Shown: in pieces, positions 15,078 through 44,850 of the stretch | Layout of the letters: each line of letters starts with the position of its first letter | Numbering within the stretch: position 1 is the first letter of the stretch | Assembly (NCBI GenBank): GCA_001804805.1 | Contig: MHBH01000062.1 | Location: 1 to 64,000 of the forward strand | Direction of reading: 5' to 3' | DNA from: Lentisphaerae bacterium GWF2_49_21 | GTDB lineage: Bacteria > Verrucomicrobiota > Lentisphaeria > Victivallales > GWF2-50-93 | DNA length: 64,000 bases | Program-made: the position numbers and the translations under genes | Notes under the pieces: generated by a model | Told to the model about the DNA's origin: nothing | Seen by the model: the letters and a program-made list of their open reading frames with translations, nothing else | Databases searched by the model: none

Positions 15078-15465
15078 GTGCGCCAAGCACAGCCAATATA
15101 AATCAGTTGGCAAATCCAACACGGGCAAAGGCTAACTACCAGCCCGGAACTAACCCGGGCGTATGAGAGGGCAACTAATTATGCGAAGCCTTGGGAAAGG
15201 TGTTACATCAGCCACAACGCAAGTGAAGGTATTGAGCCCCGAAATCTCCTTTTGTCGCATTGGGTCAAGGATTTCATGTTCTGGAAGCCAGTATCGGTAC
15301 GCGCGACATGGTGAGCGCGGAACCGGCGTGCCGGGGTCTAAGTCCGTAGTGGGTGGACGAACGGTCTATATTGGAACTTGGGAGAACCGCGGTGCTCCGT
15401 ATAGAAGCCCCCGAGAAGCCGAAAAGGCGGGGAGGGGGTATGGTGCCGTGGTAGTCGGACTGACT
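15078..15465 (+). ncRNA. Truncated group II intron, 5' RNA domain fragment
   Basis: The sequence begins with the conserved intron start GTGCG and continues with stem-rich sequence typical of bacterial group II intron domain I, including a GGTCTATATTGGAACTTGGG segment. No reverse transcriptase gene and no domain V/VI are visible; the sequence passes into a transposase remnant, so the 3' part was lost. The right limit is approximate. A second copy of the 5' end occurs at 51052. A long open frame through this region is probably not real protein. Confidence 0.55.
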
Positions 15466-15486
15466 CGTATTAGAGACAAGGAATTT

Positions 15487-16203
15487 ATGCCGAAAGTTGT
15501 CATAGTCAAAACGGCGGGAACGCATGATTCGACGGAGGCGAAGGAGCTTTGCGCGGATGTGAAGTCAGGGGAGATCGTGGTTTTCGACAAGGCATATATT
15601 GACTACAAGCACCTTCATTCCATGACGGAGCGCGGAATCTCCTGGGTGAGCCGCAGCAAGGCCAATATGAAGTACAAGACTGTGGGTGTGGGACAGCATA
15701 AAAAGGCAAAGGGTAAAATCATACGGGATGAAGTCATTGTCCTGACATGCAAGAACGCAAGGGAAAACTATCCGGAGAAGCTGCGCCTTGTGGAGGCCTG
15801 GGTGGAAATTAATGGCAAAGAGAAAAGGATGACTTTCATCACCAATAATTTTACTTGGGCGGCAAGCTCAGTTACTGATTTGTACAGGTCCCGCTGGGGC
15901 ATTGAAGTGTTCTTCAAGGAACTCAAACAGACATTCCAAATCGCCGACTTTATCGGCTACAACGAGAACGCCGTCAAATGGCAAATCTGGACAGCACTGC
16001 TTACATATATTCTTTTGCGGTTTATAGCTTTTCAAAGCAAATGGGGACATTCATTTTTCAGATTGTTTACAATGTTGAGAGGTGTTCTCTGGAGCTGCCT
16101 CAACATGTTCAGCGTCCTCGAATGCTATGGGACAGCAGGAGGCACTATAAGGCTTCGCGCCGCTCCTGAGCAAAGCTATTTGCCGGGGTTCGCCCCGATA
16201 TGA
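15487..16203 (+). pseudogene. Truncated IS4-family transposase (C-terminal part)
   Basis: About 238 residues of a DDE transposase of the IS4 type. It retains the second catalytic aspartate (VFDKAYIDY) and the glutamate block YRSRWGIEVFFKELKQTF, but the N-terminal part with the first aspartate is missing. It joins group II intron sequence near 15465, so a deletion or nested insertion removed the 5' half. It should be inactive. It resembles the intact transposase at 43669 in its second half but is clearly diverged. Confidence 0.8.
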
Positions 16204-17717: not shown

Positions 17718-18035
17718 ATGACAATATTAACACATAGCTTAAAATTTATATGCACGGGAATGTTTCATTGCTTTGGAAAGGCATTCTTCGCAGTGCTGAT
17801 CATCGTCGCCTTCACCATATTTGCCGTTGAACAAGGTTTCTGCGGTATAGATAATGCGGCTGTCGCTTCTCAACCGGTGACTAAATGTGTATGTCCCTGC
17901 CATGTCAATGTTGTTCATCAGCAATCTTTGCGAGAGCCAACTGTGAATTTGTTGCCTGAAGATATTATTTCCAGTATGAATCAAGATGTAAAACCCCCTC
18001 TTGCCACAGATATCTTTCGACCTCCTATTGCCTGA
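17718..18035 (+). CDS. Small exported protein with CxCPCH motif
   Basis: A 105-residue protein with a hydrophobic signal-like or anchor segment (about residues 18-40) and a single CVCPCHVN motif near residue 60, suggestive of metal binding. The tail is Pro-rich. No strong ribosome site precedes ATG 17718, so the start is tentative. The CxCxxH pattern and its position before the metal-linked SPFH operon suggest a metal-related role, by context only. Confidence 0.5.
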   Translation: MTILTHSLKFICTGMFHCFGKAFFAVLIIVAFTIFAVEQGFCGIDNAAVASQPVTKCVCPCHVNVVHQQSLREPTVNLLPEDIISSMNQDVKPPLATDIFRPPIA

Positions 18036-18279: not shown

Positions 18280-20268
18280 ATGAAGGATTATGTAAAAATT
18301 GCAGGAATTCTCGCTGGCGTTATTGCTTTGACTGGTTTCCTGGTCTTTTTCTCCTGGAAATTCAAAAAGAACGAGGACATAGGCCAAACGGCATCAGGTC
18401 GGCAATTGGGTGATGACGTGGTCGCCACATATGCCGGCGGGGAAATCACTGCCCAGGAACTCCGGACCTACATCAACAAGATGACATTGAGATACGGGCA
18501 ACATGAAGTCTGCGAAAAGCATAACTATGAACACGGCAAGTGTGATCCGTCAGAGAAATGCGAGACACATCCCCTGGACTCTGCAGACTCCTATCGCCTC
18601 CTGCTACGCTACCTGATAATAGACAAGATGACTGACAGATGGATTCGAGAGAAGGGCATGCTGGCGCGCGAGGACGTGACTCATCGGCTCAAACATCTGG
18701 TGGAGGAGATCAACCTCGGTTCTCTTAGCGGAAAGATGCACTCCGAACAGCTCAAACCCGACCGTTTGGAAATGCAGCAGTACTACGAGAGCCATAAGGA
18801 AGAGTACCAGAACCGTCAGTTTGCAGACGTGGAGAAGGAGATTGAGAAGCTATTGATCGCCCAGAAGCAGGCTGACTACATCCCAAAGTATATCGAGGAA
18901 CTTAAAAAGAACGCCGTGATCGAAAGAAACTATGAACTGCTTAAGATACCAGAACCCACGGATGCCGAGATCAGGAACTACTATGAAGAAAACCTCAAGG
19001 AATACGTTCGAGCCGAAGCGGTCAGCGCCCAGTACATGACATTCCAGATCGGAGGGAATGAGAAGGTTGCCCGCGAAAAGGCCGAGAAGGCGCTGTCCAA
19101 GGTTCGTGCCGGAGGCGAGTTCGGGAAGGTTGCGGAGGAACTGGGTGTGACGGCCTCGACAACGGAATATCTTGAAAAGGGTAAGACCTCCAGCAAAAGC
19201 GCCAAATTCCTGGAAACGGTGTTTCGCTATCAGCGCGGAGAAGTGACCCCGGTTTTCAAGGATGGCGAGACCCTTTGCATTGCCCGTATCGCGGATCTTG
19301 TCGGCTCCGGGCAAAGGACTCTTGACACCGTGCGCGGAGACGTCAAGTCGAAGGTTTATCTGAAGAAGGAACGTGCAAAAATGGAAGAGAACAAGTACGA
19401 AGCGCTTTTCTCAGTGCATGGCAAACGCTTCACGGTGCAGGAGTTCATGCGGGAATTCGATGAGCTTCCGGCTGAGTACAAGACGCAATTTGCCTCGTTC
19501 GATGCCAAGAAGAATCTCCTTGATCAGATGGTCGTCAAGGAACTGCTGATGGAAAAGGGAGAGGACCAGGTGCAGGACAAACAGGAAAAAGAATATCGCG
19601 AGGATGCTAAAAGAAACGCGCTGGAACAGATGTTGCACAAGGAGGAAGTCGACGAAAAAATATCTATTCCCGACAATGAGGTCAAGGAGTTCTACGAAAA
19701 GAACAAGGAACTCCTGCAAGAACCGACCAAGGCGAAGGTAAGCTTTATCCGTGTCACCATCGGTTCCAGCGATGACGAGCGTAAAAAAGCCAAGGAAACT
19801 ATTGAGAAGGCCCAGGACAGCTTGCGGTCAGGGACGGATTTTGCCACCGTCGCCAAGAAATTCTCAGATGATTGGAGCGCATCACAGGGGGGCGAGATTG
19901 ACCAGTGGATCTATGAAGGGGCGAGCCGTCTCGCGGAATATGCCGAGCACGGTTTCCATGAGTATGTATTCGCCCTCAAACCAGGTGAAACAAGTAATTT
20001 CTTCGAGTTTCAGAACTATTACATGATCGTGAAACTCCGCGAGAGAGAGGATGCCCGTCCACAGACATTGGATGAGGCAAAACCGAATATCGTCAAATAT
20101 CTGAATGCTTCCCGGCACGAAGAACGTACGCTCCAGATGGAGAACGAGCTCATGGAGAAATCGGAGCTGGTCATCAGGGACTCTGTCCTGAGCCGGTTAT
20201 TCTCTGCCGAATCTAAAGGGCATAGCGGCGAGCCCCGCTTGCAGAAGGAATCACGACATAATCACTGA
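18280..20268 (+). CDS. Membrane-anchored PpiD/SurA-type peptidyl-prolyl isomerase with Cys/His loop
   Basis: A 662-residue periplasmic chaperone with one N-terminal transmembrane helix (about 7-27) and two parvulin-like regions (about 225-345 and 480-615), the second the more complete (KAKVSFIRVT, FSDDWSASQGG, FALKPGE). Parvulins assist outer-membrane protein folding. Unusual here is a loop at residues 75-97 with H75, C78, H81, H85, C88, C94 and H97, which looks like a metal-binding or redox site. It is the first gene of the plus-strand SPFH operon and is followed after 58 bp by the CDF-SPFH fusion. Confidence 0.86.
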   Translation: MKDYVKIAGILAGVIALTGFLVFFSWKFKKNEDIGQTASGRQLGDDVVATYAGGEITAQELRTYINKMTLRYGQHEVCEKHNYEHGKCDPSEKCETHPLDSADSYRLLLRYLIIDKMTDRWIREKGMLAREDVTHRLKHLVEEINLGSLSGKMHSEQLKPDRLEMQQYYESHKEEYQNRQFADVEKEIEKLLIAQKQADYIPKYIEELKKNAVIERNYELLKIPEPTDAEIRNYYEENLKEYVRAEAVSAQYMTFQIGGNEKVAREKAEKALSKVRAGGEFGKVAEELGVTASTTEYLEKGKTSSKSAKFLETVFRYQRGEVTPVFKDGETLCIARIADLVGSGQRTLDTVRGDVKSKVYLKKERAKMEENKYEALFSVHGKRFTVQEFMREFDELPAEYKTQFASFDAKKNLLDQMVVKELLMEKGEDQVQDKQEKEYREDAKRNALEQMLHKEEVDEKISIPDNEVKEFYEKNKELLQEPTKAKVSFIRVTIGSSDDERKKAKETIEKAQDSLRSGTDFATVAKKFSDDWSASQGGEIDQWIYEGASRLAEYAEHGFHEYVFALKPGETSNFFEFQNYYMIVKLREREDARPQTLDEAKPNIVKYLNASRHEERTLQMENELMEKSELVIRDSVLSRLFSAESKGHSGEPRLQKESRHNH

Positions 20269-20280
20269 GAATACACGCAA

Positions 20281-20329
20281 ATGAATATTAAGGAGGTACG
20301 CACGTGAATATTATGGAGACACTCACATG
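20281..20329 (+). promoter_or_regulatory. Triplicated 23-bp translation-start region
   Basis: Start-like triplets ATGAATATT (20281), GTGAATATT (20304) and ATGAATAGA (20327) are spaced by exactly 23 bp, each later one preceded by a GGAG-containing leader. The first two frames are not in phase with the gene. It appears to be a tandem duplication of the ribosome-binding region of the CDF-SPFH gene. Confidence 0.6.
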
Positions 20330-21856
20330 AATAGAAAACAGCAGACGGTACTCATAACCCTTGGCGCGAACGGCATTCTAATCGCGTTGCGGTTTATCCT
20401 GGCTTTTGTTTCCGGGAGCATTGCGCTGAAGGCCAATGCCTGGCATTCGGTCGCTGACTTGGTGGTGATGGGAATCGTCTATCTGGGCCTGCTTTTTGCA
20501 ACCCGGCAGGACGAGCGCTACAAGTGGCTCATCGGTCGCACGGAGAACATCGTCGCCATAATCGTGGCTTTGTTTATTTCGTATATGGGATTTGAACTCT
20601 TCTATGAGGCGATTGCCGGCGAGGCGATAGAATTGCGGTACGTGGCATGGGCCTCGTTGGGGGCATTCCTTGGAGTTTGCATCACCTATTTCATGGGACG
20701 CTATCTGCTATATGTCGGAAATCAGGAGAAGTCCCCGAGCCTGATCGCCGCCGGCTATCACGCGCGGATGGACATGCTCTGCTCCAGCGCCGTCCTCATC
20801 GGACTTACTGGTTCGATCTTTGGAATGACTGGGTTGGACAAGGTCGCCGCAACGATCGTTGTAATCTTTATCTTTGTGGCTTCCCTCGAGATCCTCATGG
20901 TAAACGTGAAGGCGATGCGGTCTAATGCCGATGTGGTGCCTGACGAAGGATTCGAACATGGACATAGCAGGATCGGCTGGCTTGTAACTGTCGGTTTGTT
21001 GCTCGTGGCAGGTTATTTCGCCTCAGGCCTCTATTCCGTGCGTCCCGGCGAGCAGGCCGTCGTACGGCAATTTGGCAGGATTTCCAGCGTAGCGGCGGTG
21101 CCTGGACTTCATTACCGCTGGCCATATCCGGTGGAGCGTGTTGACATCGTACCTGCCGCACGCGTGCAGCTTGTAACCACAGATCAAAAGTTACTGTTGA
21201 CTGGTGATGAGAACCTCATCGAAGTCGCCATTACGGTACACTACCGGGTCAAGGACGCGGCCCTGTTCCTCCTCAACGTCACTGATCCGGAACAGGTCGT
21301 AAGGAACGCGGCCGAATCGAGCGTCCGCTCAGTGGTCGGACGCAACGCTATCGATCTTCTTCTTGCCGAGGGAAGGAGTAAGCTCCAGGAGGAAACCCAA
21401 CAGGCGATCAGCATAGAATTAGACAGCAACCGGGTCGGACTGGAAGTGACAGGCGTCCTCATTCGCTACCTCGCTCCGCCTGACGAAGTCAAGGCCGCCT
21501 TCCAGGACGTCGCCAGTGCCCGGGAAGACCGGATCACCTACATCAACGAGGGGCATTCCTTCTACAATGCACTGGTTCCGAAAGCCAGGGGAGAGGCGGC
21601 GGAGAATCTTCTCTCGGCAGCTGCGTACAAGACAGAGAAAATCGACAGCGCAGAAGGAGAAGCGACACGTTTCCTGAAGAGGACCGAAGAATATGCGCAG
21701 GCGCGTGAGATTACCCGGACTCGTCTGTATCTTGAAGCGATGGAGAAGGTGCTTCCGGGCGTAAAGAAGTGCCTGATGGGAGCAGGCACGGAAATTGATG
21801 GGACTGACCTGTGGTTCACGGGACCATATGCGGAAGCCCCATTTATAAAGAAATAA
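20327..21856 (+). CDS. Cation diffusion facilitator core fused to HflK-like SPFH domain
   Basis: A 509-residue inner-membrane fusion. Residues 1-195 are a CDF-type membrane core with six hydrophobic helices; the metal-site pairs H40xxxD44 (TM2) and H145xxxD149 (TM5) are both present, as in zinc-type CDF proteins. The normal CDF cytosolic C-terminal domain is absent. Instead a further helix (about 217-234) leads into an SPFH/band-7 domain (SVRPGEQAVVRQFG onward) and a helical region ending near 495, as in HflK. I infer a zinc or cadmium/iron exporter tied to an SPFH scaffold. HflC- and HflK-like genes follow immediately. Confidence 0.9.
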   Translation: MNRKQQTVLITLGANGILIALRFILAFVSGSIALKANAWHSVADLVVMGIVYLGLLFATRQDERYKWLIGRTENIVAIIVALFISYMGFELFYEAIAGEAIELRYVAWASLGAFLGVCITYFMGRYLLYVGNQEKSPSLIAAGYHARMDMLCSSAVLIGLTGSIFGMTGLDKVAATIVVIFIFVASLEILMVNVKAMRSNADVVPDEGFEHGHSRIGWLVTVGLLLVAGYFASGLYSVRPGEQAVVRQFGRISSVAAVPGLHYRWPYPVERVDIVPAARVQLVTTDQKLLLTGDENLIEVAITVHYRVKDAALFLLNVTDPEQVVRNAAESSVRSVVGRNAIDLLLAEGRSKLQEETQQAISIELDSNRVGLEVTGVLIRYLAPPDEVKAAFQDVASAREDRITYINEGHSFYNALVPKARGEAAENLLSAAAYKTEKIDSAEGEATRFLKRTEEYAQAREITRTRLYLEAMEKVLPGVKKCLMGAGTEIDGTDLWFTGPYAEAPFIKK

Positions 21857-21894
21857 TATATAAATTCAAACAGAAATTTAAGGAGAATATGACT

Positions 21895-22836
21895 ATGACG
21901 ACAAGGTACGGATGGGTGAAATGGGTGGTGATACTTGGATTCCTTACGGTGGTTCTCGTTGTAAGCAATCTCGTCATGTTCGTCGTCGACACGACGGAGT
22001 ATGCAGTTGTCACCCAGTTTGGAAGAGTTGTGCAGACGATACTGAAGCCAGGGCTTTACTGGAAACTGCCTGAACCGATCCAGACCGTGCAGCGCTACGA
22101 CAACCGCATGCAGATCTATGAGGCAGGACAGGTTGAGTTCCTTACCAAGGACAAGAAAAGCGTTCTCACGGACTTTTACGGCTCATGGAAGATCAAGGAC
22201 CCGCTGGAGTTTATGAAAGCGGTCAAAGACAAGGTCGGTGCGGAGGGAAGGCTTTCGGACGTATTCAGCTCCACGCTCGGTATGCAGTTCGGGCGTTTCG
22301 ACCTGAGCGACCTGGTAAACACAAATGCAGCACAGATGAAACTGCACGACATGCTGACCCAGGTTACACTGGAATGCAACAGGAAGGCCGCCGAGTACGG
22401 GATCGAGGTCGTCAATGTCGAGCTGCGGACTCTGAACTTCCCGGAAAAGAACAGGCTTTCCGTGTTCGGTCGGATGAAAGCGGAACGCGAACAGATCGCC
22501 CGCAAGTACAGATCCGAGGGCAGCGAGGAGGCTGCAAAGCTCCGCGCCGAGGCCAAGAAGGAGGAAAAGCAGATTCTTTCCCAGGCATATAAGAATGCCG
22601 AGATACTCCGTGGAGAAGGTGATGCGGAGTCGATCCGCGTCTATGCCCAGGCATTCCAGAAAGATCCTGAGTTCTACAAGTTTGTACGAACTCTGGCGGT
22701 GTACGACAAAATCATCGACGACAAGACCACGGTTGTGTTCCCAGCCGATTCCGACCTTCTGCGGTTCCTCGGACAAAAACAACAGTCCGCCGCAAAGCCT
22801 GAAACCTCAATGAAGGAGAAGGATGGTGTAAAATGA
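21895..22836 (+). CDS. HflC-like SPFH protein
   Basis: A 313-residue SPFH/band-7 protein with one N-terminal membrane helix (about 10-31), an SPFH domain (TEYAVVTQFGRVVQ onward) and a C-terminal coiled-coil region rich in RAEAKKEE-type heptads. It is closest in layout to HflC, which with HflK forms a large cage around the FtsH protease in E. coli. ATG 21895 is preferred over ATG 21889 because AGGAG then lies 9 bp upstream. It overlaps the next gene by 4 bp (ATGA). Confidence 0.92.
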   Translation: MTTRYGWVKWVVILGFLTVVLVVSNLVMFVVDTTEYAVVTQFGRVVQTILKPGLYWKLPEPIQTVQRYDNRMQIYEAGQVEFLTKDKKSVLTDFYGSWKIKDPLEFMKAVKDKVGAEGRLSDVFSSTLGMQFGRFDLSDLVNTNAAQMKLHDMLTQVTLECNRKAAEYGIEVVNVELRTLNFPEKNRLSVFGRMKAEREQIARKYRSEGSEEAAKLRAEAKKEEKQILSQAYKNAEILRGEGDAESIRVYAQAFQKDPEFYKFVRTLAVYDKIIDDKTTVVFPADSDLLRFLGQKQQSAAKPETSMKEKDGVK

Positions 22837-23816
22837 ATGAACAACCCGGAAATCCGCTGGACGACATTACGGAAGCGTTCCGGCACCTCCACCTCGGGAT
22901 CGTGCTGCCATCGGTTCTGCTGGGGATTCTATGTATCTACGGCATGACCGGCTTCTATATTGTCAAGCCAGGCGAACAGGGCGTTGTCCGCCGCTTCGGA
23001 CAGGTCATTCGCACTACTGAGCCAGGTGCGCACTATCGATTGCCCCGGCCAATTGAATCCGTCGAGGTTGTGACGGTCGGCGAGGTGCGCCGTGCAGAGA
23101 TCGGGATGTTGCTGCCGGAGCATAGGCACGCTTCCTTCATGCCTGAGAAAATCCAACTCCTGACAGGGGACGAGAACTTGATCAACGTAGAGGCGGTCGT
23201 CCAGTACAAGGTCAAGGACGCGGCGCGATACCTCTATAGCGTTAACTTCAGCGAGGAACGATTATTGCACAACGCCGTAGTGGCGGCCCTGGTGGAACTC
23301 ATTGGCCAAGTCGGGGTGGATGATATCCTGACCACTGAAAAGGTGGCGGCCCAAGGAAAAATACTCTGGAAGGCGCAGAAAGTACTGGACTTATACGACA
23401 GCGGACTCCAGATAACCGGATTCAACATCAAGGGCATTGTCCCACCTACTGAGGTGGCCGACGCTTTTCGCGACGTGATAACGGCCCGGGTGGACAAGGA
23501 ACAGTCCATTAATCAAGCAAAAGGATATAGCAACAGCGTAATCCCCGAAGCCAGAGGAAAGGCGCGGGAGCGGGTCAGTGAAGCGGAGGGTTATCGTACC
23601 GAAGTCGTCAATCGGGCAAAGGGTGACGCGATGCGCTTCGAGTCGATGTTGACCGAGTACCAGAAGGACGTCAAGATTTACTCGGAAGATGTAACACGCT
23701 ATCGCCTTTACCTGGAAACGATGGAAACGGTGCTCCCTCGCGTGAGCAAGTATGTATTAGGGGAGGAAACCAAGGGGAAGAGCAAGGTCAACCTAAAGTT
23801 CTTCAACCGCCAATAG
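22833..23816 (+). CDS. HflK-like SPFH protein
   Basis: A 327-residue SPFH protein with one N-terminal helix (about 22-43), then YIVKPGEQGVVRRFGQV, the HflK-type segment LLTGDENLINVEAVVQYKVKD, and a coiled-coil region with repeated glutamates. It completes the K-C-K trio with the two preceding genes. FtsH, the usual partner, is not in the window. ATG 22833 overlaps the HflC stop codon. Confidence 0.92.
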   Translation: MNEQPGNPLDDITEAFRHLHLGIVLPSVLLGILCIYGMTGFYIVKPGEQGVVRRFGQVIRTTEPGAHYRLPRPIESVEVVTVGEVRRAEIGMLLPEHRHASFMPEKIQLLTGDENLINVEAVVQYKVKDAARYLYSVNFSEERLLHNAVVAALVELIGQVGVDDILTTEKVAAQGKILWKAQKVLDLYDSGLQITGFNIKGIVPPTEVADAFRDVITARVDKEQSINQAKGYSNSVIPEARGKARERVSEAEGYRTEVVNRAKGDAMRFESMLTEYQKDVKIYSEDVTRYRLYLETMETVLPRVSKYVLGEETKGKSKVNLKFFNRQ

Positions 23817-25104: not shown

Positions 25105-26220
25105 GTGAAAAGGGAACTGTATCTTTTAACTGCATTGTTATTCTCTTTCTCCTCGTTCAACATTGTGAATGCCGAAGAAAAAGATTCGAAAAGAACTCCG
25201 GCCCCCAGGCTGAAATCGGAAACATTTTTCAAGCCCGATGAGGGCGCACCGGAGAAAACGAATACCGAGCCTCTGGCATTCCTCCCTGAAATTGTCGCCA
25301 AAATAGGGGATGAAAAGATAACAAAGGCTGACATCGAGGCCGAGTTCAAACCAATAATCTCTATGATGAAGGGAAATGGACAGTTAGACAGTATTCCTCC
25401 TGAAACCTGGAAGAAGGAAGTCATAGGCGGAATCAACGGCATGATCTCAACGAAGATGCTAACCAAGCTCGCGGAGGAAAACGGCTACAAGCCTGATATG
25501 GCAAGGACGGAAGAGGAATTCAAGAAAATGTCAGCCAAAATCCCTTCGGAACAACTTGCCGAGATGATGGCAAAACAGGGGATGACTGAGGAAACCGTTA
25601 AGAAAAGGATCGGAATCAGCCTCACAATCCAGAAATGGATCGAGGAAAAAGTAAGCAGCGACATAAAAATCTCCGATGCTGATGTCGAAAAATTCTACAA
25701 GGAAAACCAGGATCGTTTCAAGAGGCCCGAGTCTGTGCGCGCCTCCCATATCCTCATAACACCTGAAGAATTAGACGCTGATAAAGCCAAGTCCATGTCA
25801 GACGAGGAAAAGAAAAAAACAGCAGATGAACAGAAGCAGAAAGCCCTTAAAAAGGCCCAGGAAATACTTGCCAAGCTCAAGAACGGTGAAGATTTTGCGA
25901 AACTCGCATCTGAAAACAGCTCCTGCCCCAGCAAGGCAAATGGCGGCGATCTTGGGACATTTGCAAGAGGCAATATGGTCGCAGAATTCGAAAAGGCTGC
26001 GTTCTCCCTCAAGCCGGGCGATTTGAGCGATGTCGTTGAAAGCAAGTTTGGATACCACATAATCAAGGTTTCTGAAAAAAACAATGCCGAAACGGTTTCA
26101 CTGAGGGATGCGCAAATCTCCATCTCCGAAGACATGAAGAATATAAAGACTTCTGAGGTTGTTCGGAATCTGATTGAGGCCGAGAAGAAGAAGGAAAATG
26201 TCGAAATATTTGTTAATTGA
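25105..26220 (+). CDS. PrsA/SurA-like parvulin peptidyl-prolyl isomerase
   Basis: A 371-residue exported chaperone with a signal peptide (about 1-23), an N-terminal SurA-like helical domain and a complete PPIC/parvulin domain at about 210-330 with VRASHILI, SSCPSKANGGDLGTF and VVESKFGYHIIKV. It should act on outer-membrane or secreted proteins. The start is GTG 25105 with AAGGA 9 bp upstream. It is the second parvulin gene in this cluster and may support folding of exported cluster proteins. Confidence 0.92.
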   Translation: MKRELYLLTALLFSFSSFNIVNAEEKDSKRTPAPRLKSETFFKPDEGAPEKTNTEPLAFLPEIVAKIGDEKITKADIEAEFKPIISMMKGNGQLDSIPPETWKKEVIGGINGMISTKMLTKLAEENGYKPDMARTEEEFKKMSAKIPSEQLAEMMAKQGMTEETVKKRIGISLTIQKWIEEKVSSDIKISDADVEKFYKENQDRFKRPESVRASHILITPEELDADKAKSMSDEEKKKTADEQKQKALKKAQEILAKLKNGEDFAKLASENSSCPSKANGGDLGTFARGNMVAEFEKAAFSLKPGDLSDVVESKFGYHIIKVSEKNNAETVSLRDAQISISEDMKNIKTSEVVRNLIEAEKKKENVEIFVN

Positions 26221-26372: not shown

Positions 26373-28586
26373 ATGAAACAAATTATGAACACAAATGGAA
26401 AATTCAAGATCATAGGAATGGATTGCGTGGAGGAAGTCAACGCGCTCAGGGGAACGGTGGGCAAACTGGCCGGTGTCTCCAGCCTCGACTTCAACCTTAT
26501 TGATGGAACTATGACTGTCCAGTATGACGCCAGCTTAGTCGACAAGGACGCTATCAGGAACGCAATACAGGAGGCAGGACTGAAGGGCGAGTCTCTTGAT
26601 GAGAAGCAACCTGACGGAGTTGTCAAGGCATCTTGGTGGCAAATACGCGGACGAACAGTGATGTGCTGGAGTTCCGTTGCTTTGCTGAGCATGGGCTTTA
26701 TAACTCATGCTTTTCTGCATGGAGGCCTTATTCATGCGTTGATCAGCGGCGAGGGTATGGCGCGACACGGATTTCCTTTACCAGTCATACTCTTCTACGT
26801 AGCAGCGGTTGTGACCGGGGGTTGGTTTGTTTTTCCAAAGGCCTGGATGTCCTTGCTGCGATTTCGGGCGGACATGAATCTGCTGATGACTATTGCAGTA
26901 ATAGGCGCGATGATCATTGGCCAATGGTTTGAAGCTGGTACTGTGGCTTTTCTCTTTGCTCTGTCCCAACTGCTGGAATCGTGGAGCGTGAGCCGCGCCC
27001 GCAGAGCGATTCACGCTCTGGTAAGACTGTCACCTCCGATGGCGCGCTACATCTGCCCCCATCACGGGGACATCGAGGAAAAACCGGTCGGGGAAGTCCT
27101 CGTAGGCTCAACGGTCATAGTGCGCCCCGGCGAACGAATACCACTGGACGGAGTCGTTACCAAAGGCCGAACTGCAGTAAACCAGGCACCTATCACTGGT
27201 GAATCCATGTCGGTTGTCAAAAAGGAAGGGGATGAGCTGTTCGCCGGAACGATCAATGAGCATGGATCTATTGAGTTTAGAGTCACTAAGCCCGCCGCCG
27301 ACACCACGCTTGCGCGAATCATCCGCATGGTGGAAGAGTCACAGTCACGCCGCGCGCCGATCGAGCAATGGGTGGAGAAATTTGCACGCTATTATACGCC
27401 GGCCGTGATTGTTATAGCCATGCTGGTGGCTATCGTCCCACCCATGTTCGGGGGTGAATGGAACCGCTGGTTCTACGAGGCGCTGGTCATGCTGGTTATC
27501 GCCTGTCCCTGCGCACTTGTGATTTCAACACCAGTCAGCATTGTGGCGGCCCTCACTGCGGCATCCAAGGTAGGCGTGTTGATCAAGGGAGGTGCGTTCC
27601 TTGAGGCGGTTGGTCGTGTGCGCGTTTTTGCCTTGGACAAGACCGGCACTCTAACTACGGGACTCCCGGAGATACAGATGATCGTGCCTTTTAACGGCCA
27701 CACCCAAGACGAACTTCTTGCCCGTGCTGCAGCGCTGGAGACGCACAGCGAGCATCCGCTGGCAAAGGCTGTATTGAGAAAGGCCCATCATATGGGGAAG
27801 ATTACCCCATTGGTGGCTCATGACTTCCGTGCCCTCAAAGGCCGCGGTGCCGAAGCGATGATTGATGGTCGCCTTTTCTGGGTGGGAAGCCACCGGCTTT
27901 TGCATGAAAAAGGCATCGAGGAGTCAGAAGTCCACGAACATGCGCAACGTATGGAAGACGCAGGACATTCCGTTATTGCTGTGGGGAATGACCGACATGT
28001 CTGCGGGCTTATCAGCGTGGCCGATTCCATACGCCCCGAAGCGCCAGACCTGATCCGCCAGCTGAAGGTAGCGGGAATATTGCACGTAGTAATGCTGACA
28101 GGGGACAACCGAGGCACGGCGGAAGCGGTAGGCCATGCGATTGGCGGCATAGATGAAGTGCGTGCGGAACTGCTGCCCGAAGACAAGATGCAGGCGATTC
28201 AGGAGATCGCGCAGAAACACGGGTCTGTCGCAATGGTAGGTGATGGAATCAACGATGCACCGGCTCTTGCCACGGCCACCATCGGAATTGCGATGGGTGC
28301 CGCCGGAACCGATGCTGCGATTGAAACGGCTGACATTGCCCTCATGTCCGATGACCTGTCACATCTTCCCTGGTTGGTACAGCATGCGCGGCGTACCTTG
28401 TACATTATCCGGCAAAACATTATGTTTGCCTTGAGCGTGAAAGCCGGGTTCATGGTGCTGGCCTTGATGCAGATTGCAACACTGTGGATGGCTATTGCAG
28501 CCGACACGGGCGCATCCCTGCTGGTGATCTTCAACGCGCTACGCCTATTGAAAAGCAGTTGTAAGGAAAAGAATGAAGGATTATGA
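26373..28586 (+). CDS. P1B-type ATPase, Zn/Cd/Pb/Co export type (ZntA-like)
   Basis: A 737-residue heavy-metal pump. An N-terminal HMA-like domain (about 11-70) keeps GMDCVEEV but lacks the second cysteine of the CxxC site. Then come the usual membrane helices, the CPC motif at 378-380, the phosphorylated aspartate D422 in DKTGTLT, an HP-type motif SEHPLAK and GDGINDAP. This combination is typical of ZntA-type Zn(II)/Cd(II)/Pb(II) exporters. It follows the chaperone gene by 152 bp. It is the metal pump of the plus-strand SPFH cluster; a similar pump ends the minus-strand cluster. Confidence 0.93.
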   Translation: MKQIMNTNGKFKIIGMDCVEEVNALRGTVGKLAGVSSLDFNLIDGTMTVQYDASLVDKDAIRNAIQEAGLKGESLDEKQPDGVVKASWWQIRGRTVMCWSSVALLSMGFITHAFLHGGLIHALISGEGMARHGFPLPVILFYVAAVVTGGWFVFPKAWMSLLRFRADMNLLMTIAVIGAMIIGQWFEAGTVAFLFALSQLLESWSVSRARRAIHALVRLSPPMARYICPHHGDIEEKPVGEVLVGSTVIVRPGERIPLDGVVTKGRTAVNQAPITGESMSVVKKEGDELFAGTINEHGSIEFRVTKPAADTTLARIIRMVEESQSRRAPIEQWVEKFARYYTPAVIVIAMLVAIVPPMFGGEWNRWFYEALVMLVIACPCALVISTPVSIVAALTAASKVGVLIKGGAFLEAVGRVRVFALDKTGTLTTGLPEIQMIVPFNGHTQDELLARAAALETHSEHPLAKAVLRKAHHMGKITPLVAHDFRALKGRGAEAMIDGRLFWVGSHRLLHEKGIEESEVHEHAQRMEDAGHSVIAVGNDRHVCGLISVADSIRPEAPDLIRQLKVAGILHVVMLTGDNRGTAEAVGHAIGGIDEVRAELLPEDKMQAIQEIAQKHGSVAMVGDGINDAPALATATIGIAMGAAGTDAAIETADIALMSDDLSHLPWLVQHARRTLYIIRQNIMFALSVKAGFMVLALMQIATLWMAIAADTGASLLVIFNALRLLKSSCKEKNEGL

Positions 28587-34634: not shown

Positions 34635-36614
34635 CTATTTCTCTTCCGCATCCTGACGAACTTCGTGCATGGTCAGTTCTTCGCCGGTCCTTACCAGCCT
34701 TGCACTGTTGAAAAGGACTATCGTCGTGCTGACAGTATGAAGGGCGGCCGCCAGAATCGGGTTTAGTAGACCGAAGACCGAGAAGCTTATTCCACCAACT
34801 ATGAAGACAAATCCGATAAGCAGGTTCTGGTTGATTATCTTGCCGGACTCTTTTGCAAGGGTAATGAGAAGCGGTATCCTGCGGAGATCATTTGTCATCA
34901 ACGCGATCGAGGCGCTGTTTATCGCGATGTCGCTGCCGATTGCGCCCATTGCTATTCCAAGATCACCGGCAGCAAGGGCAGGAGCGTCGTTAATTCCGTC
35001 ACCGACGACTGCGACAGTATAATTCTGCTTGACTTCTTTTACATAGGCGACTTTGTCGTCGGGCAGACATTCGGCCCTGACGTTTTCTATGTTGAGTTCC
35101 TTTGAGACGAGATCCGCGACGGTCTTAAGGTCGCCTGTGACCATGGAACACTGCCTCACACCGTCCGCCTTGAGGGATTTGATGGCTTCCTGGGCTTCTT
35201 TTCTTACTGTGTCCCTGAATCCTATCCATCCGATGGCTTTGCCTTGGATGGAAACATAGACGACGCTTATGGCGCCATGGCCGCCCTCGGTCTCCGGATC
35301 TTCGAGGGATGAAATACTTATATTATGTGATTTCAGCCATTCTCCTCTTCCTATCAACGCCTTTTCCCCGTTGATAATAGCCTCGACTCCTTTCCCATGT
35401 ACTTCGGTAAACTTCTCAACGTCGGTAATTTTAACATTGGCTTCTTTTGCAAGGTTCTGCAGGGCTTTTGCCGTAGGATGGTTGCTATGGCTTTCCACGG
35501 ATGCGGCGATCTGCAGGAGGTTGGCCGGATCAATCCCTTCCGCCGGAGCAAGCCTTACAACTGAAAGCGTTCCCTCGGTAAGAGTTCCTGTCTTGTCGAA
35601 GATTACGGCTCTTACTTTTGCAGCGAGTTCGAGGTACGATACGTTCTTGATGAGAATTCCGAGCCTGGCGGCGGCGGCGAGTGCAGCGATGACCGCAGAC
35701 GGGGCCGCAAGTACTAGCGCACACGGGCATGCGGCCACAAGCACGGATATCACATTGCGCATGTTTCCGCCGGAGAACCACCATGCAAGACCAGCTATCA
35801 TCAGGATGGTTGGAATATAATATCCGGCATAACGGTCTATGACCCTTACAACCGGCGGCTTGCTTGTCTCGGCTGCAAGGATCATTTCCTTTACCTTTCC
35901 CAGCGTAGTGTCCTTGCCGACCTTTGTGACTTTCACGTCAATCACGCCAGTAAGGTTCTGTGTTCCTGCGAAGACATCATTCTTCTCCTCTTTTTCAACT
36001 GGGAACGATTCACCGGTGATCGAGGCCTGGTTAACCGTGCTCGTACCTTTGACTATCATGCCGTCAACCGGGAAATTCTCGCCGGGGCGAATCCTGATGA
36101 CATCTCCGATGACGAGTGAAAGCACGTCTACCTCGAGTTCCTGTCCGTCGCTTATCTTCCTTGCCGATCTCGGAGTCAGCTTGATAAGGTCCTCGATGGA
36201 TCTCTGCGCCCCGTGTGCTGTCCTTGACTCGATGATGATCGCGATGAGGAGGAAGAACGAGATGTCTCCGGCGGTCCTGAAGTCTCCTCCCGAGAAAGCC
36301 GCGAGGACTGCGAGTGCCACGAGCTCGTTCATATAGACCTTGCCTTTTGCAAGATCCTTGAACGCGACGATGAATATTGGCAATGCGAGGATTATGGCGC
36401 CGATTATGGCGCTGAGTTCCGCAGTGAAAGTCTGGTCGGGCTGCATCCATACGAGGATATAGGAGTTCAGGATGAAAAAGCCGCCGACAAGGGCGATGCT
36501 GAGCCTGGCAAGGCTCCGACTATGGGGAGCACCTCCGCTCTCGTGATCAGGATCACATCCACAGATCTCGCTGTGGGCGTCAAAAACCTTTTTTCTGGCT
36601 GTCAGTTCGGGCAT
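34635..36614 (-). CDS. P1B-type ATPase without an HMA domain
   Basis: A 659-residue heavy-metal pump with the CPC motif at 296-298, phosphorylated D340 in DKTGTLT, the HP-type motif SNHPTAK and GDGINDAP near residue 550. The N-terminus lacks an HMA domain but has a CGCDPDHES stretch near residues 18-26. The number of helices before the CPC is reduced relative to the plus-strand ATPase, but the core is complete. It is the last gene of the minus-strand SPFH cluster and is 4 bp from the HflK-like gene, so they form one operon. Confidence 0.92.
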   Translation of the reverse strand: MPELTARKKVFDAHSEICGCDPDHESGGAPHSRSLARLSIALVGGFFILNSYILVWMQPDQTFTAELSAIIGAIILALPIFIVAFKDLAKGKVYMNELVALAVLAAFSGGDFRTAGDISFFLLIAIIIESRTAHGAQRSIEDLIKLTPRSARKISDGQELEVDVLSLVIGDVIRIRPGENFPVDGMIVKGTSTVNQASITGESFPVEKEEKNDVFAGTQNLTGVIDVKVTKVGKDTTLGKVKEMILAAETSKPPVVRVIDRYAGYYIPTILMIAGLAWWFSGGNMRNVISVLVAACPCALVLAAPSAVIAALAAAARLGILIKNVSYLELAAKVRAVIFDKTGTLTEGTLSVVRLAPAEGIDPANLLQIAASVESHSNHPTAKALQNLAKEANVKITDVEKFTEVHGKGVEAIINGEKALIGRGEWLKSHNISISSLEDPETEGGHGAISVVYVSIQGKAIGWIGFRDTVRKEAQEAIKSLKADGVRQCSMVTGDLKTVADLVSKELNIENVRAECLPDDKVAYVKEVKQNYTVAVVGDGINDAPALAAGDLGIAMGAIGSDIAINSASIALMTNDLRRIPLLITLAKESGKIINQNLLIGFVFIVGGISFSVFGLLNPILAAALHTVSTTIVLFNSARLVRTGEELTMHEVRQDAEEK

Positions 36615-36617
36615 ATG

Positions 36618-37766
36618 TTATTTCCCTTTTTCCTTGTCTTTGTCATTCTTCTGGTTCCTCGGTTCGGGATTGAGCATTATCCTCACCTCATGAGTGCCGT
36701 TGCTGTCCTCGGGGATTATATATTTATCCTTCACATTCTCCAGCAGTTTTGAAATTGTGTCGTTATAGAGGACGATGAGCACCACCGGATTTTTCCTGTA
36801 TTCTTCAAGGTACTTCTTGAAGGAGATACTGTCAGATTCGATGTCGGCGACGATCTGGATCTTATAGACATTTGCCTCTGCCACTATCCTTGAAGCTTCT
36901 GAATCGGTCTCCCCCTCGACAGTCACTGCATATGCCCTTGCGTTCTCCTTTTCCGTGGAGCACTGCAGTTCGGCGTCAATGACCTCCTGGAATGCCGCAA
37001 CTGTATTAAGGGGCGCAGTGTTGCCTTTCAGTGTGAGATTTTCAACCTTTATCCCGATCTCCCATTTGGCAATTTCGGAAATGAAAAGGTCGTTGACAGC
37101 TGCCCGGTACTCGGAGGATTTTTTGTATAGTGCTGAATCTACCTGCTGGGATGCGGTGACTTTCAGGACTGCATTTTCCAGGATGGACTGGATGAGCGTC
37201 CTCGGACCTCTTGTGCCAATGGCTTTGCCTGTAACAGGATTGCGGATGATTTCATCAAGCCTGGACGGTTCATCGGGGCAGAGGCAGTTCAGATAATATT
37301 TCATAGGATCCGTAATTGTATAGACAAGCTCCCACTCGGTGTGGATTATATTTGCATCTCCGGTAAGCAGATATCCGTCTTTACCTGGGACAAGGGTGGA
37401 GGCTCCGGAAGGTTGCTGCTCCCCTTTTATCGCCTTAACATCGGACCTGTGCCAGTATGTGGCGAGAGTGATGGTCTGCTTGCTGACAGGTATCCTGATG
37501 ATCTTGCTTACCGGATATGGGAAAGACCAGTAGTATCCGGCCTCATGCTTTTCAACGACCTTGCCGAAACGTTCGACAATGACGTTCTCCTGGGGCTTGA
37601 CTTCGTAGTATCCGCCAAAGGTGAAATACCATATTATAAGGAAGGCTATGAAGCATGAAAGCAGGGTGAAGGCGATATGAAGGCTTTTCGTGAGGGAGTC
37701 TATCCCGGCCTTGTAATGCCCGTTGCTTTCAATTTCAGATATATTCTTGTGATCGTGTTCAGTCAT
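36618..37766 (-). CDS. HflK-like SPFH protein (minus-strand cluster)
   Basis: A 382-residue SPFH protein with an N-terminal helix (about 31-51), YEVKPQENVIVERFGKV, an HflK-type LLTGDANIIHTEWELVYTI segment and a C-terminal coiled coil. The cytoplasmic or periplasmic tails are longer than in the plus-strand HflK. It lies between the HflC gene and the P-type ATPase in the same order as the plus-strand cluster's K gene. Confidence 0.92.
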   Translation of the reverse strand: MTEHDHKNISEIESNGHYKAGIDSLTKSLHIAFTLLSCFIAFLIIWYFTFGGYYEVKPQENVIVERFGKVVEKHEAGYYWSFPYPVSKIIRIPVSKQTITLATYWHRSDVKAIKGEQQPSGASTLVPGKDGYLLTGDANIIHTEWELVYTITDPMKYYLNCLCPDEPSRLDEIIRNPVTGKAIGTRGPRTLIQSILENAVLKVTASQQVDSALYKKSSEYRAAVNDLFISEIAKWEIGIKVENLTLKGNTAPLNTVAAFQEVIDAELQCSTEKENARAYAVTVEGETDSEASRIVAEANVYKIQIVADIESDSISFKKYLEEYRKNPVVLIVLYNDTISKLLENVKDKYIIPEDSNGTHEVRIMLNPEPRNQKNDKDKEKGK

Positions 37767-37787: not shown

Positions 37788-38744
37788 TCATTTGGATTTT
37801 CCGCTGTCCTTTTTTCCATCCAGAAGCAGTTTCTGGTCGGCCTTCAGCAGATCAAACGGCGCGTAATCGGTATTTAAAATAAGAGTGGTCCTGCTGGGTA
37901 CGATCTTCCGAAGCGACTCGAGCTTCCTCAGGAAAGCGGCAAGTTCCGGCTCATCCTTGAAGGCGGCGTAGAAGGGGGCGGCGGTCGCATCCCCTTCTGC
38001 CTTGATCTGTTTGGCCTGTGCATCGGCCTGGGCCAGCTTGAGCAGGCGGTTGGAGTCCGCCTGATCCATGATTTTCTTCGCTTCGCTCTTCCCCTCGGCA
38101 CGGTACCCCGAGGCGACTACATTCCTTTCGGCTTTCATGCGGTTGAGAACGTTTTCAGTGTTCTTCTCTGGAAGACCGAAGTTCTTGATCCCGACATATT
38201 CTACCTGGATGCCGTATTTCTCAAGGACAAAAGGAGCAATTCCGGCCTTCATCTTATTTTCAATTTCTGTCAGCTTCATTTTCCCGGGATTGGTGTTTAC
38301 AAGCTCATCGAACTTGTATTTTCCAAGGACGGTGGCCTTTTCATTCCTCATCTGGCTGTTTATCTTGTCCTCGGCCTGTGAAATGTCCGGGATTGTCAGG
38401 CTTTTAAAGAGCTTTTCGGCGTCAACTATCTTGTAGACCACGAATATCCCTGCGACAACAGGCTGTCCGTCCGCTGTATAAGTCTCCTCGATTTTTCCGG
38501 TGCTGCCGTCGAAGCAGTGGTATCGGTTGTCGAACTTGTAGATTTTCTGGAAAGGCCATGGCCAGCAGAAATGCAGGCCTGCATCCTTTACGCCGGTAAT
38601 CTTGCCGAGGGTCGTTACAACGGCAAGTTCGGTTGACTTCACCTGGAATGTGAATATCGCGAGAAGGAATATCACTGAAACGATCATGCCGAGAAGCAGC
38701 GTCGGCCAATGCTGCAGCATTTTACTTTTATCTTGTTCATTCAT
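37788..38744 (-). CDS. HflC-like SPFH protein (minus-strand cluster)
   Basis: A 318-residue SPFH protein with one N-terminal helix (about 14-34), TELAVVTTLGKITG, and a C-terminal coiled-coil region with KAERNVVASGYRAEG, typical of HflC. It follows the polytopic SPFH gene by 3 bp and precedes the HflK gene by 21 bp. Together with its neighbours it reproduces the K-C-K order of the plus-strand cluster. Confidence 0.92.
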   Translation of the reverse strand: MNEQDKSKMLQHWPTLLLGMIVSVIFLLAIFTFQVKSTELAVVTTLGKITGVKDAGLHFCWPWPFQKIYKFDNRYHCFDGSTGKIEETYTADGQPVVAGIFVVYKIVDAEKLFKSLTIPDISQAEDKINSQMRNEKATVLGKYKFDELVNTNPGKMKLTEIENKMKAGIAPFVLEKYGIQVEYVGIKNFGLPEKNTENVLNRMKAERNVVASGYRAEGKSEAKKIMDQADSNRLLKLAQADAQAKQIKAEGDATAAPFYAAFKDEPELAAFLRKLESLRKIVPSRTTLILNTDYAPFDLLKADQKLLLDGKKDSGKSK

Positions 38745-38747
38745 AGG

Positions 38748-40679
38748 TTAATTTCCTCCGTTGTCGGTTTTCTTGTTTACTTCGTCGGACAGGGCGCCGA
38801 GATCCGCATCAAGCAGGTCCATGCGGGCCTTCTCCTCGAAATTGAATATGTAGATATTGTTCGTATTGTTATCTCCGACGACTATCTTTCTCGTGTCGCC
38901 GCAGTCCTTCTCCAGGAATTCGAGATATGTCCTGAGCTTGAACATCTCAGGCATTGTCTTGTAGGCCAGGATCTGTTTATCAAATCGGTCTTTCTCCGCT
39001 TTTGAAATACTGACGGCATTTTTCCTTGCTGTATCCGCGGACCTTATTCTCTGCGCGGCTTCGGCGATTGCATATGGAAGGATCTTGTTCTCATAAGCCT
39101 TGGCATTGAGTATCGAAGCCTCCTTCTCCTGCCTGGCGCTTGCGACCTCCTCGAAGGCTGGCGCGACCTCGTCGACCGGGGGATGGACATCGTGCAGGTT
39201 GAGGGAGACGATTTCCACGCCGAGACTCATGTTGTCCGCGGACGCCTGTATTCTTTTAGAAAGATCGGCTACAGCCTTGTCCTTGTCAACGGACATGAGT
39301 TTCAGCATGTCTACACTTACAAGGTATTTGCTGATCTCCCGTTCCGAGATTGTCTTGAGCAGGTGGGGAATGTCATAGTTGCGGTATGCAAAATCAAAGA
39401 CCTTGTCGGCTCTGGCCCTGTATTGGATTACAAAGCTGGCGGACAAGAAGGACACCGGAGTCTCCTTGTCAACCGCCCTTTTCTCCGAAGCTACGATATA
39501 TCTTTCCTCTTTCCCATAATGCTGCACAGTCCATAGGATCACTTCGGGAGTTTTAAGTTCGCCCTTTTCATCCATCCTATCGGCGCCGATAGTGATTTCC
39601 TGGATCTGGTTGACAGGTATCCTTGTCATTTTCCCGAACGGCCATGGCAGATTGAAGTAAATGCCCTCGCTGAGAGGCTTGACATCGGCGATCTTTCCGA
39701 AATTCTCGCGTATTCCGGCTTCTCCGGGGCCCACTTCGCTTATGCATGTGAAAAGCCACAATACGACAAGCCATGCGATGATTAGAGGGATTATTGATTT
39801 TTCAAAGAAGGAGTAGAGCCATGTCCTGGAAACCTTGAATCCGAACTGGTAGTCGAGGGTGTCTGAAATATTCTTTAGCACGCCTCCGGGTTCTGTAAAA
39901 AGCGACAGGAGGCGGCTTTCAAAGATAGGTCTTTCCTCGATCATCGATCTCGGACGGTAGAATTCGACTATGAAGTTCAGGAGGAGCTCAATCCCGAGCA
40001 CGGCTGTTGTCATGAAGATGATCTCCTTTACGATCCTGTCCCAGACCGGAAGGTCGAACCTGTACATGAAGATTGCGAACGTGGCCAGGAATCCCAGTAT
40101 CGATGTGAGGACAATCCACCCACCGAGTGGCCTCAGCCAGCGGAAATTCTTCTCCCTGGACTGGCCGATGCAGAATATTCCGAAGAACAGGCTTGCCAGC
40201 GCCATGACAATAGATATGAATGCAGCCTGGGGGGGCTTGACTGGAAACGGAACATCGACTCTCTTTGTCCATAAATACCAGAATACGGAAAGCGTGACTG
40301 CTATGATAATGAAATTCAGCATGGATATCGTATAAGGACAGTATTTTTTATACCTGGACAGTGTACGCGCAGCTGAGAAAAGCACATCTTCTCCAGATTC
40401 CAGGGCCTTCTTCTCCTTGCGCTTCTCAAGGAGGAGCCTGTCTTCCTCCTCGATCGCCGCCTTCCTGCCAAAGAAACCGAGTGTGTATGTGGCGATAGAC
40501 AATATGAATATTATCATGTACGGCAATAGAAGGAGGTGGAAGGAGTCGGAGCCCGTCCAGCGGCTGGTCCAGAAAATGACATGCCAGACGGCAAATGAAT
40601 ATATGGCGACTAAAAGCGACAGATTCTCCAGTTGCCTGGATTCGTCTATCTTCAACTGGATATTTTTTGCAAATTTCAT
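38748..40679 (-). CDS. Polytopic membrane domain fused to HflK-like SPFH domain
   Basis: A 643-residue protein. The first 310 residues contain about seven hydrophobic helices (roughly 21-38, 47-70, 117-136, 151-172, 186-206, 217-240 and 294-313), with no CDF-type HxxxD pairs and no recognised family. The rest is an SPFH domain (EVGPGEAGIRENFGKI onward) with a glutamate-rich coiled coil. It is the first gene of the minus-strand cluster and the counterpart of the CDF-SPFH fusion at 20327, but its membrane part is unrelated in sequence as far as I can see. Confidence 0.88.
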   Translation of the reverse strand: MKFAKNIQLKIDESRQLENLSLLVAIYSFAVWHVIFWTSRWTGSDSFHLLLLPYMIIFILSIATYTLGFFGRKAAIEEEDRLLLEKRKEKKALESGEDVLFSAARTLSRYKKYCPYTISMLNFIIIAVTLSVFWYLWTKRVDVPFPVKPPQAAFISIVMALASLFFGIFCIGQSREKNFRWLRPLGGWIVLTSILGFLATFAIFMYRFDLPVWDRIVKEIIFMTTAVLGIELLLNFIVEFYRPRSMIEERPIFESRLLSLFTEPGGVLKNISDTLDYQFGFKVSRTWLYSFFEKSIIPLIIAWLVVLWLFTCISEVGPGEAGIRENFGKIADVKPLSEGIYFNLPWPFGKMTRIPVNQIQEITIGADRMDEKGELKTPEVILWTVQHYGKEERYIVASEKRAVDKETPVSFLSASFVIQYRARADKVFDFAYRNYDIPHLLKTISEREISKYLVSVDMLKLMSVDKDKAVADLSKRIQASADNMSLGVEIVSLNLHDVHPPVDEVAPAFEEVASARQEKEASILNAKAYENKILPYAIAEAAQRIRSADTARKNAVSISKAEKDRFDKQILAYKTMPEMFKLRTYLEFLEKDCGDTRKIVVGDNNTNNIYIFNFEEKARMDLLDADLGALSDEVNKKTDNGGN

Positions 40680-43610: not shown

Positions 43611-44850
43611 GATTTGAAATCGGGATACGATATTCCCTATTCATCTTCATTTCATGGAAAGGAAATGTATGATGAACAAGGGGAAAACAATATTCTCGCA
43701 GATTATGAAGTTTCTTCCGGCATACGAATTTCAAAGAAGCGTGTTAAAATACGGAGGGGAATACAAGGTAAAGGAATTCTCGTGTCTGGAACAGTTCTAT
43801 GTCATGGCATTTGCTCAGATAGCGTACAGGGAAAGCCTGCGGGACACTGTGACATGCCTGGGTGTTCTTGGTCCAAGACTATATCATATGGGCATAAGGA
43901 ACAAGCCGAGTCTGAACAACCTTTCGCATGCGAACATGACGAGGGACTGGCGTATATTTGCGGAAGTCGCACAGGTTCTCATCTGCCGCGCAAGGAAACT
44001 CCACGAGGACGAACAGATTTCGGAGGAGCTGGAGCAGGCTGTTTATGCGCTGGATTCTACAACGATAGATCTTTGCCTGAGCTTGTTCCGATGGGCCAGG
44101 TTCCGCAAAAGGAAGGGGGCGATAAAACTTCACACCCTCATGGAAGTCAAAAGTTCCATGCCGACTGTTATTTACATCACCGATGGAAAAGTTCACGACA
44201 TGAACATGCTGGATATTTTGGAACTGGAGCCAGGAGCAATATATATCATGGACAGAGGCTATGTGGACTTCAGAAGGCTTTACCAGTTCTGCCTGGACTG
44301 CGCCTTCTTTGTGATACGGGCGAAAAGAAATCTCCGGTATCATGTCGTGAAAAAGAGAAGGGCGTGCAGGAAGGACGGGATAATTTCGGATCAGGTCATA
44401 CACCTTCACGGCTACTATCAGAAAAGACATTATCCCACCGTGCTGAGACGGATAAAATACTGGGACAGGGAAAAGAAGAAAAGACTGGTTTTCCTGACGA
44501 ATAACTTCAACCTGCCTGCAAAGACGATCGCATTCCTTTACAGATGTAGATGGAGGATAGAAATATTTTTCAAATGGATAAAGCAGAACCTGAGGATAAA
44601 GACCTTTTTCGGAACAACTGAAAACGCAGTAAAGACGCAGATATGGATAGCGATATGCGTGTATGCGATGGTGTTCATAATGCAGAAGGAGCTCGGTATA
44701 GATAAAAGCGCATATGAAATCCTTCAGATTTTGAACTTGACTCTGTTCGAAAAGGAGTCTTTGAAGGAAATGCTTTTGAGCGTAAATGCATCAAAAAATG
44801 AGAGTGGAAGTTGCAAGCAGTTGCTATTGTTCAACTAATATTGGGACACT
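43533..44850 (+). mobile_element. IS4-family insertion sequence
   Basis: A 1318-bp element bounded by short inverted repeats AGTGTCCCA (43533-43541) and TGGGACACT (44842-44850). It carries one full-length transposase. No clear target duplication is seen; the sequences outside the ends belong to the 104-bp duplicated block, which complicates defining the left end. Confidence 0.7.
43669..44838 (+). CDS. IS4-family DDE transposase
   Basis: A full-length transposase of about 389 residues. The DDE residues are recognisable: first D in YALDSTTIDL, second D in IMDRGYVDF and E in the block YRCRWRIEIFFKWIK. The N-terminal domain (DUF4372-like, SCLEQFYVMAFAQIAYRES) is intact. GGAAAGGA 5-8 bp before ATG 43669 suggests this start over ATG 43654. 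The gene is probably functional, unlike the truncated copy at 15487. Confidence 0.9.
   Translation: MMNKGKTIFSQIMKFLPAYEFQRSVLKYGGEYKVKEFSCLEQFYVMAFAQIAYRESLRDTVTCLGVLGPRLYHMGIRNKPSLNNLSHANMTRDWRIFAEVAQVLICRARKLHEDEQISEELEQAVYALDSTTIDLCLSLFRWARFRKRKGAIKLHTLMEVKSSMPTVIYITDGKVHDMNMLDILELEPGAIYIMDRGYVDFRRLYQFCLDCAFFVIRAKRNLRYHVVKKRRACRKDGIISDQVIHLHGYYQKRHYPTVLRRIKYWDREKKKRLVFLTNNFNLPAKTIAFLYRCRWRIEIFFKWIKQNLRIKTFFGTTENAVKTQIWIAICVYAMVFIMQKELGIDKSAYEILQILNLTLFEKESLKEMLLSVNASKNESGSCKQLLLFN

Follow-up and report, generated by a model that had tools for sequence, protein, structure and literature searches.

The window analysed here is a stretch of 64,000 nucleotides from contig MHBH01000062.1 of Lentisphaerae bacterium GWF2_49_21. 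Its forward strand holds an operon in which an HflK-type SPFH protein and a CDF metal transporter core are encoded in a single gene, with the following features.

18280..20268, plus strand: membrane-anchored PpiC-type peptidyl-prolyl isomerase (Rot_1), first gene of the operon by gene order (Pfam Rotamase_2, 4.7e-30)
20327..21856, plus strand: CDF-HflK fusion, 509 aa, one intact frame from the ATG at 20327 to the stop at 21856
20327..20929, plus strand: six-helix CDF core of the fusion (Pfam Cation_efflux, 9.6e-30)
20444-20446, 20456-20458, 20759-20761 and 20771-20773, plus strand: codons of site residues H40, D44, H145 and D149, respectively
20930..21028, plus strand: predicted cytosolic linker with His residues (EHGHSR), then a seventh TM helix (residues 216-234), from hydropathy and charge count
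21029..21856, plus strand: HflK-type SPFH region, predicted to be periplasmic (TIGR01933, 241 bits)
21889..22836, plus strand: HflC, directly downstream of the fusion (TIGR01932, 210.9 bits, cut-off 134.4)
22833..23816, plus strand: HflK2, a second HflK, without transporter domain (TIGR01933, 238 bits)
25105..26220, plus strand: second PpiC-type isomerase (Pfam Rotamase_3, 1.6e-30)
26373..28586, plus strand: ZntA-like P-type ATPase with an HMA domain, CPC at 378 and the late-helix motif ADTGASLLVIFNALR

A small ORF upstream of the operon (17718-18035, plus strand) contains a Cys/His-rich stretch (CVCPCH) and has no Pfam match.

The original prediction held that this gene joins a six-helix CDF core to an SPFH domain in one protein. 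Profile searches confirmed it, as the frame is open throughout and both parts scored above the Pfam and NCBIfam cut-offs. Residues 9-195 matched Cation_efflux with 104.3 bits (cut-off 26.6), and the CDF superfamily model TIGR01297 gave 104.6 bits (cut-off 82.35). Band_7 was matched by residues 237-408 with 92 bits (cut-off 23.6), and the HflK model TIGR01933 by residues 236-484 with 241.3 bits (cut-off 159.4). By sequence, the closest solved relative was E. coli HflK (7vhp, 172 bits, residues 219-485); the match of the CDF part to solved YiiP/FieF was weak (20 bits, residues 18-195). An AlphaFold model of modest confidence (mean pLDDT 65.8, pTM 0.38), based on eight alignment rows of which only two covered the CDF part, showed six helices, then a seventh helix, then an SPFH fold. 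Both folds were recovered when this model was submitted to Foldseek, with hits to HflK (7vhq, E 1.4e-15) and to the YiiP transporter (8f6k, E 2e-5, target TM 0.53, 204 columns). The two metal pairs, H40/D44 in TM2 and H145/D149 in TM5, lie where they had been placed and were invariant in an alignment of all seven CDF-HflK fusions, which come from three phyla; the possibility that homologues lack the transport residues was thus not borne out. HxxxD in both helices is presumably the zinc-type CDF pattern.

The topology predicted from sequence starts with a cytosolic N-terminus and six helices; the linker behind them is cytosolic, and a seventh helix leads to the SPFH domain in the periplasm. Lys/Arg residues numbered 10-13 on the cytosolic side versus 2-3 on the periplasmic side in six of the seven fusions; in the remaining one (L122) a missed helix upsets the count. 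Most of the fusions have His residues in the cytosolic linker. Unlike HflK proteins with one N-terminal helix, the window protein has six extra helices ahead of helix 216-234, and that helix together with the charges fits a predicted periplasmic location of the SPFH domain. The cytosolic C-terminal domain of CDFs is absent, the TIGR01297 match ending at 195 of 285 model positions with the HflK region coming next. CDFs without this domain exist. The proposal that SPFH replaces the CDF cytosolic domain was therefore right with respect to the chain, in which an HflK-family SPFH domain takes the place of the missing one, and wrong with respect to the membrane, since the SPFH domain is predicted to be periplasmic and so would lie on the opposite side from a CDF C-terminal domain.

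The protein thus resembles two known systems in part. It shares with the CDFs YiiP/FieF, MamB and ZitB the six-helix core, the HxxxD/HxxxD site residues and the YiiP fold match, and differs from them in lacking the cytosolic C-terminal domain. As for E. coli HflK/HflC (SPFH3), HflK and HflC score above curated cut-offs, their genes are adjacent and the SPFH domains are predicted to be periplasmic. In contrast with the E. coli pair, the window HflK bears a CDF core, and a third SPFH gene and metal transporters stand in place of the usual neighbours.

A search for other CDF-SPFH fusions, as had been suggested, yielded six further full-length CDF-HflK proteins. Those of Victivallaceae (L004, apparently the same as contig G276:C11) and of G114/L046 are 61% and 60% identical to the window protein, respectively. 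Two others (L118 and L119) belong to the phylum sample built around a Phycisphaerae genome, and L122 is more divergent. The sixth (L188; 42% identity over 98%) is encoded on a complete conjugative plasmid of Aquibium oceanicum, NZ_CP018172.1, where the database annotation says HflK only. The nearest unfused CDF in the class sample was 31% identical, and the viral contigs searched contained no relative of the fusion. Although the source genome is a draft in 91 contigs, an assembly or annotation artefact is extremely improbable, and we ruled out the undetected join about which the original prediction had cautioned because six independent full-length fusions occur elsewhere, one of them on a finished plasmid.

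Gene order around the fusion is largely kept. The succession isomerase, CDF-HflK, HflC, HflK2, P-type ATPase is common to the window, L004, L118 and L119, with an extra isomerase between HflK2 and the ATPase in the window. The A. oceanicum plasmid has the same operon genes, the isomerase being shifted to after HflK2. Of the five genes, L046 shows all but the ATPase within its sequence stretch, and in the stretch available for L122 neither isomerase nor ATPase was seen beside the fusion. Cys78, Cys88 and Cys94 of Rot_1, with adjoining His residues, were kept in all five CDF-HflK operons aligned. CPC and a late-helix D motif (ADTGAS or ADMGAS) are common to the ATPases of the window, L004 and L119, and by eye the plasmid ATPase, whose N-terminus is His-rich, has the same motif pattern. 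We take ADTGASLLVIFNALR, the D motif of the window ATPase, to be the Zn/Cd/Pb-class pattern. Genes for PCu(A)C, SCO, CopD, Nramp and a two-component system surround the plasmid operon (L188, 1349-25515), forming a metal island.

The window contains a second HflK/HflC/HflK2 trio on the other strand, and DDE transposase genes at 15163-16203 and 43654-44838 (both plus strand) flank the two trio loci.

34635..36614, minus strand: P-type ATPase with CPC and a His-type late-helix motif (TIGR01525, 555.6 bits)
36618..37766, minus strand: HflK2 of the second trio
37788..38744, minus strand: HflC of the second trio
38748..40679, minus strand: K1, a six-helix N-terminal region without family assignment, joined to an HflK-like region

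The HflK-like region of K1 falls under the HflK cut-off (110 versus 159 bits), and the CDF site residues are absent from its six-helix region. Profile comparison of the latter with the fused CDFs gave probabilities of approximately 91-93%, with reversed controls near 0, whereas comparison with unfused CDFs gave 1.3%, and 0.2% with one subset; in an AlphaFold model (pLDDT 57.8) only ZnT4 matched, at E 0.34. In view of these mixed results, the region is a candidate decayed CDF at most. A near copy of the second trio is found in the same genome (G000:C36, L078), and the layout also occurs on plasmids of Paraburkholderia, Burkholderia and Rhizobium, the Paraburkholderia trio adjoining a ZnuABC-type zinc ABC importer. 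The 11 Band_7 matches of the source genome (G000) correspond to nine proteins in three trios, a lone HflC at C3 and one match at C73; no ordinary hflK-hflC pair was found among them. The genome has one FtsH, at G000:C66. The lone HflC-like gene (L079, 7004-8455) directly follows a Fur-family regulator, with FecCD-like importer genes also upstream of it, and L081 and L083 have similar lone HflCs.

We then looked for trios with a profile built from 12 trio HflC proteins (threshold E 1e-30), which also matched ordinary HflC. Matches were obtained in 195 of 388 genomes of the window's phylum and in 171 of 392 genomes of a second phylum. The plasmid HflC hits H22, H23 and H27, considered as trio candidates, were rejected as ordinary pairs. 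We annotated 79 loci with reference matches; as they were picked mostly from the strongest HflC hits, the transporter fractions describe this set only. In this non-random sample, a metal transporter was fused or adjacent in 68 of the 70 complete new trios. A separate P-type ATPase was present in 53, and HflK was fused to an ArsP_1-type permease in 10, to a P-type ATPase in two and to a CDF in three. The two trios without a transporter were L110, at a contig end, and L117. In contrast, tblastn found no CDF, ATPase or permease in 23 ordinary hflK-hflC loci (308,856 bases).

Including the earlier loci, and counting the plasmid CDF but not the duplicate L045, HflK fusions amounted to seven with CDFs, 11 with ArsP_1/SO_0444 permeases and six with P1B-type ATPases. 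The ATPase fusions (L036, L037, L038, L068, L123 and L155) and the permease fusions (L005, L125, L126, L129-L132, L135, L136, L143 and L144) are followed by HflC and HflK2. The L005 permease scored above the SO_0444 Cu/Zn efflux model NF033936 (325 versus 300 bits). SO_0444 permeases and P1B ATPases are thus fused to HflK in sister trios; the known ones are, to our knowledge, free-standing. In an HflK tree, the HflK2 proteins of the trios formed one branch (support 98/96), and the members of each fusion type all lay to the same side of a branch. Support for the CDF (60/86), ArsP (76/86) and P-ATPase (31/70) groups was weak, so the tree does not fix how many times fusion took place. HflK is known to form domes, cage-like in shape, above membrane enzymes, and its joining to three unrelated kinds of transporter suggests that some domes serve metal transport besides protein breakdown.

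The best reading overall, and one that we hold to be somewhat probable, is that the operon encodes an HflK/C dome with a covalently tethered Zn/Cd-type transporter. The HflK part would form a periplasmic SPFH dome with HflC and HflK2, as expected from homology, and the CDF core would move Zn/Cd-type divalent metal across the inner membrane, under the dome or at its rim. The tether would anchor copies of the transporter on the dome and may stand in for the missing CDF cytosolic domain by holding the transporter in an oligomer. The ZntA-like ATPase would join in this assembly; the isomerase, which bears the Cys/His motif, would act on the periplasmic side. We favour this reading because the domains score above cut-offs, the four site residues are invariant, the operon order is kept and the charge bias fits. 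Unrelated transporter families also share the fusion position on HflK, and transporters accompany the sampled trios and not the ordinary loci. The weak sequence match to YiiP, the lack of a neighbouring isomerase or ATPase in the L122 stretch, the misfit of the L122 charge count and the non-random choice of trios count against it. By analogy, a precedent may be seen in the human stomatin SPFH dome, which encloses aquaporin-1 and the urea transporter UT-B (PMC12407830). Those pairs likewise combine an SPFH dome with a membrane transporter, but they are human and non-covalent, and carry water and urea.

The same precedent bears on the idea that SPFH is a mere oligomerising or microdomain scaffold, with transporters clustered outside the dome and no enclosed compartment. 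Any oligomeriser could offset the loss of the CDF cytosolic domain, and the stomatin study allows for some partners lying beyond the dome; the cargoes solved, however, lie inside the belt (PMC12407830), and we consider this scaffold unlikely. It is similarly improbable that the dome still houses FtsH, as E. coli HflK/C does (PMC13220708), with the fused CDF tuning proteolysis by gauging or supplying metal instead of exporting it in bulk. Since no ordinary hflK-hflC pair was found in the source genome, its FtsH would have no HflK/C candidates other than the trio proteins. We count the single FtsH and the failure to find an ordinary pair in favour of a transporter-bearing dome as well. However, a motif scan flagged no ftsH in the trio loci, and the partners are transporters from three unrelated families, not regulators.

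The transporter might instead be an importer that scavenges metal under starvation. In Pseudomonas aeruginosa, zinc depletion induces a cluster of hmtA with hflC/hflK genes, and import is the function ascribed to HmtA (PMC4542158, PMC11761036). This cluster (PA2434-PA2439) unites a P-type ATPase with three HflC/HflK-family genes, a likeness in gene layout to the second trio; unlike for the window protein, no fusion is reported there (PMC4542158, PMC11761036). The ZnuABC-type importer beside the Paraburkholderia trio and the FecCD-like importer and Fur-family regulator beside the lone HflC of the source genome point the same way. Those cases, however, concern a lone HflC or trios of the second type, whereas the CDF operons have the ZntA-type ATPase motif and the plasmid copy sits in a copper/metal-handling island. 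We therefore give import little credence for the CDF-HflK operon, for which export is the favoured direction. The zinc-depletion response of the hmtA cluster and the import function given to HmtA caution against extending export to every trio.

For the tethered-transporter dome, a further step, which we put forward tentatively as possible but rather doubtful, is that HflK/C-type domes are metal-handling compartments, the transporter opening into the space below the periplasmic dome. If so, metal being imported or exported would first traverse a closed space and only then arrive in the open periplasm or at its carriers. The contents of bacterial SPFH domes besides FtsH are largely open, and the fusions name a cargo by covalent link. 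That cargo is metal transporters of three families, so that suitable proteins for structural work and transport assays are at hand; the fusions also offer a reading of the placement of hflC/hflK beside hmtA in P. aeruginosa. We found no HflK-metal transporter fusion in the open-access literature searched, and the main text of a 2009 survey of prokaryotic SPFH proteins does not contain the words transporter, ATPase, fused or metal (PMC2636767).

Some trio-type HflC matches contained one in-frame stop (G198:C44, G368:C122, G365:C212, G619:C18 and others). These may be broken genes, sequence errors or cases of recoding.
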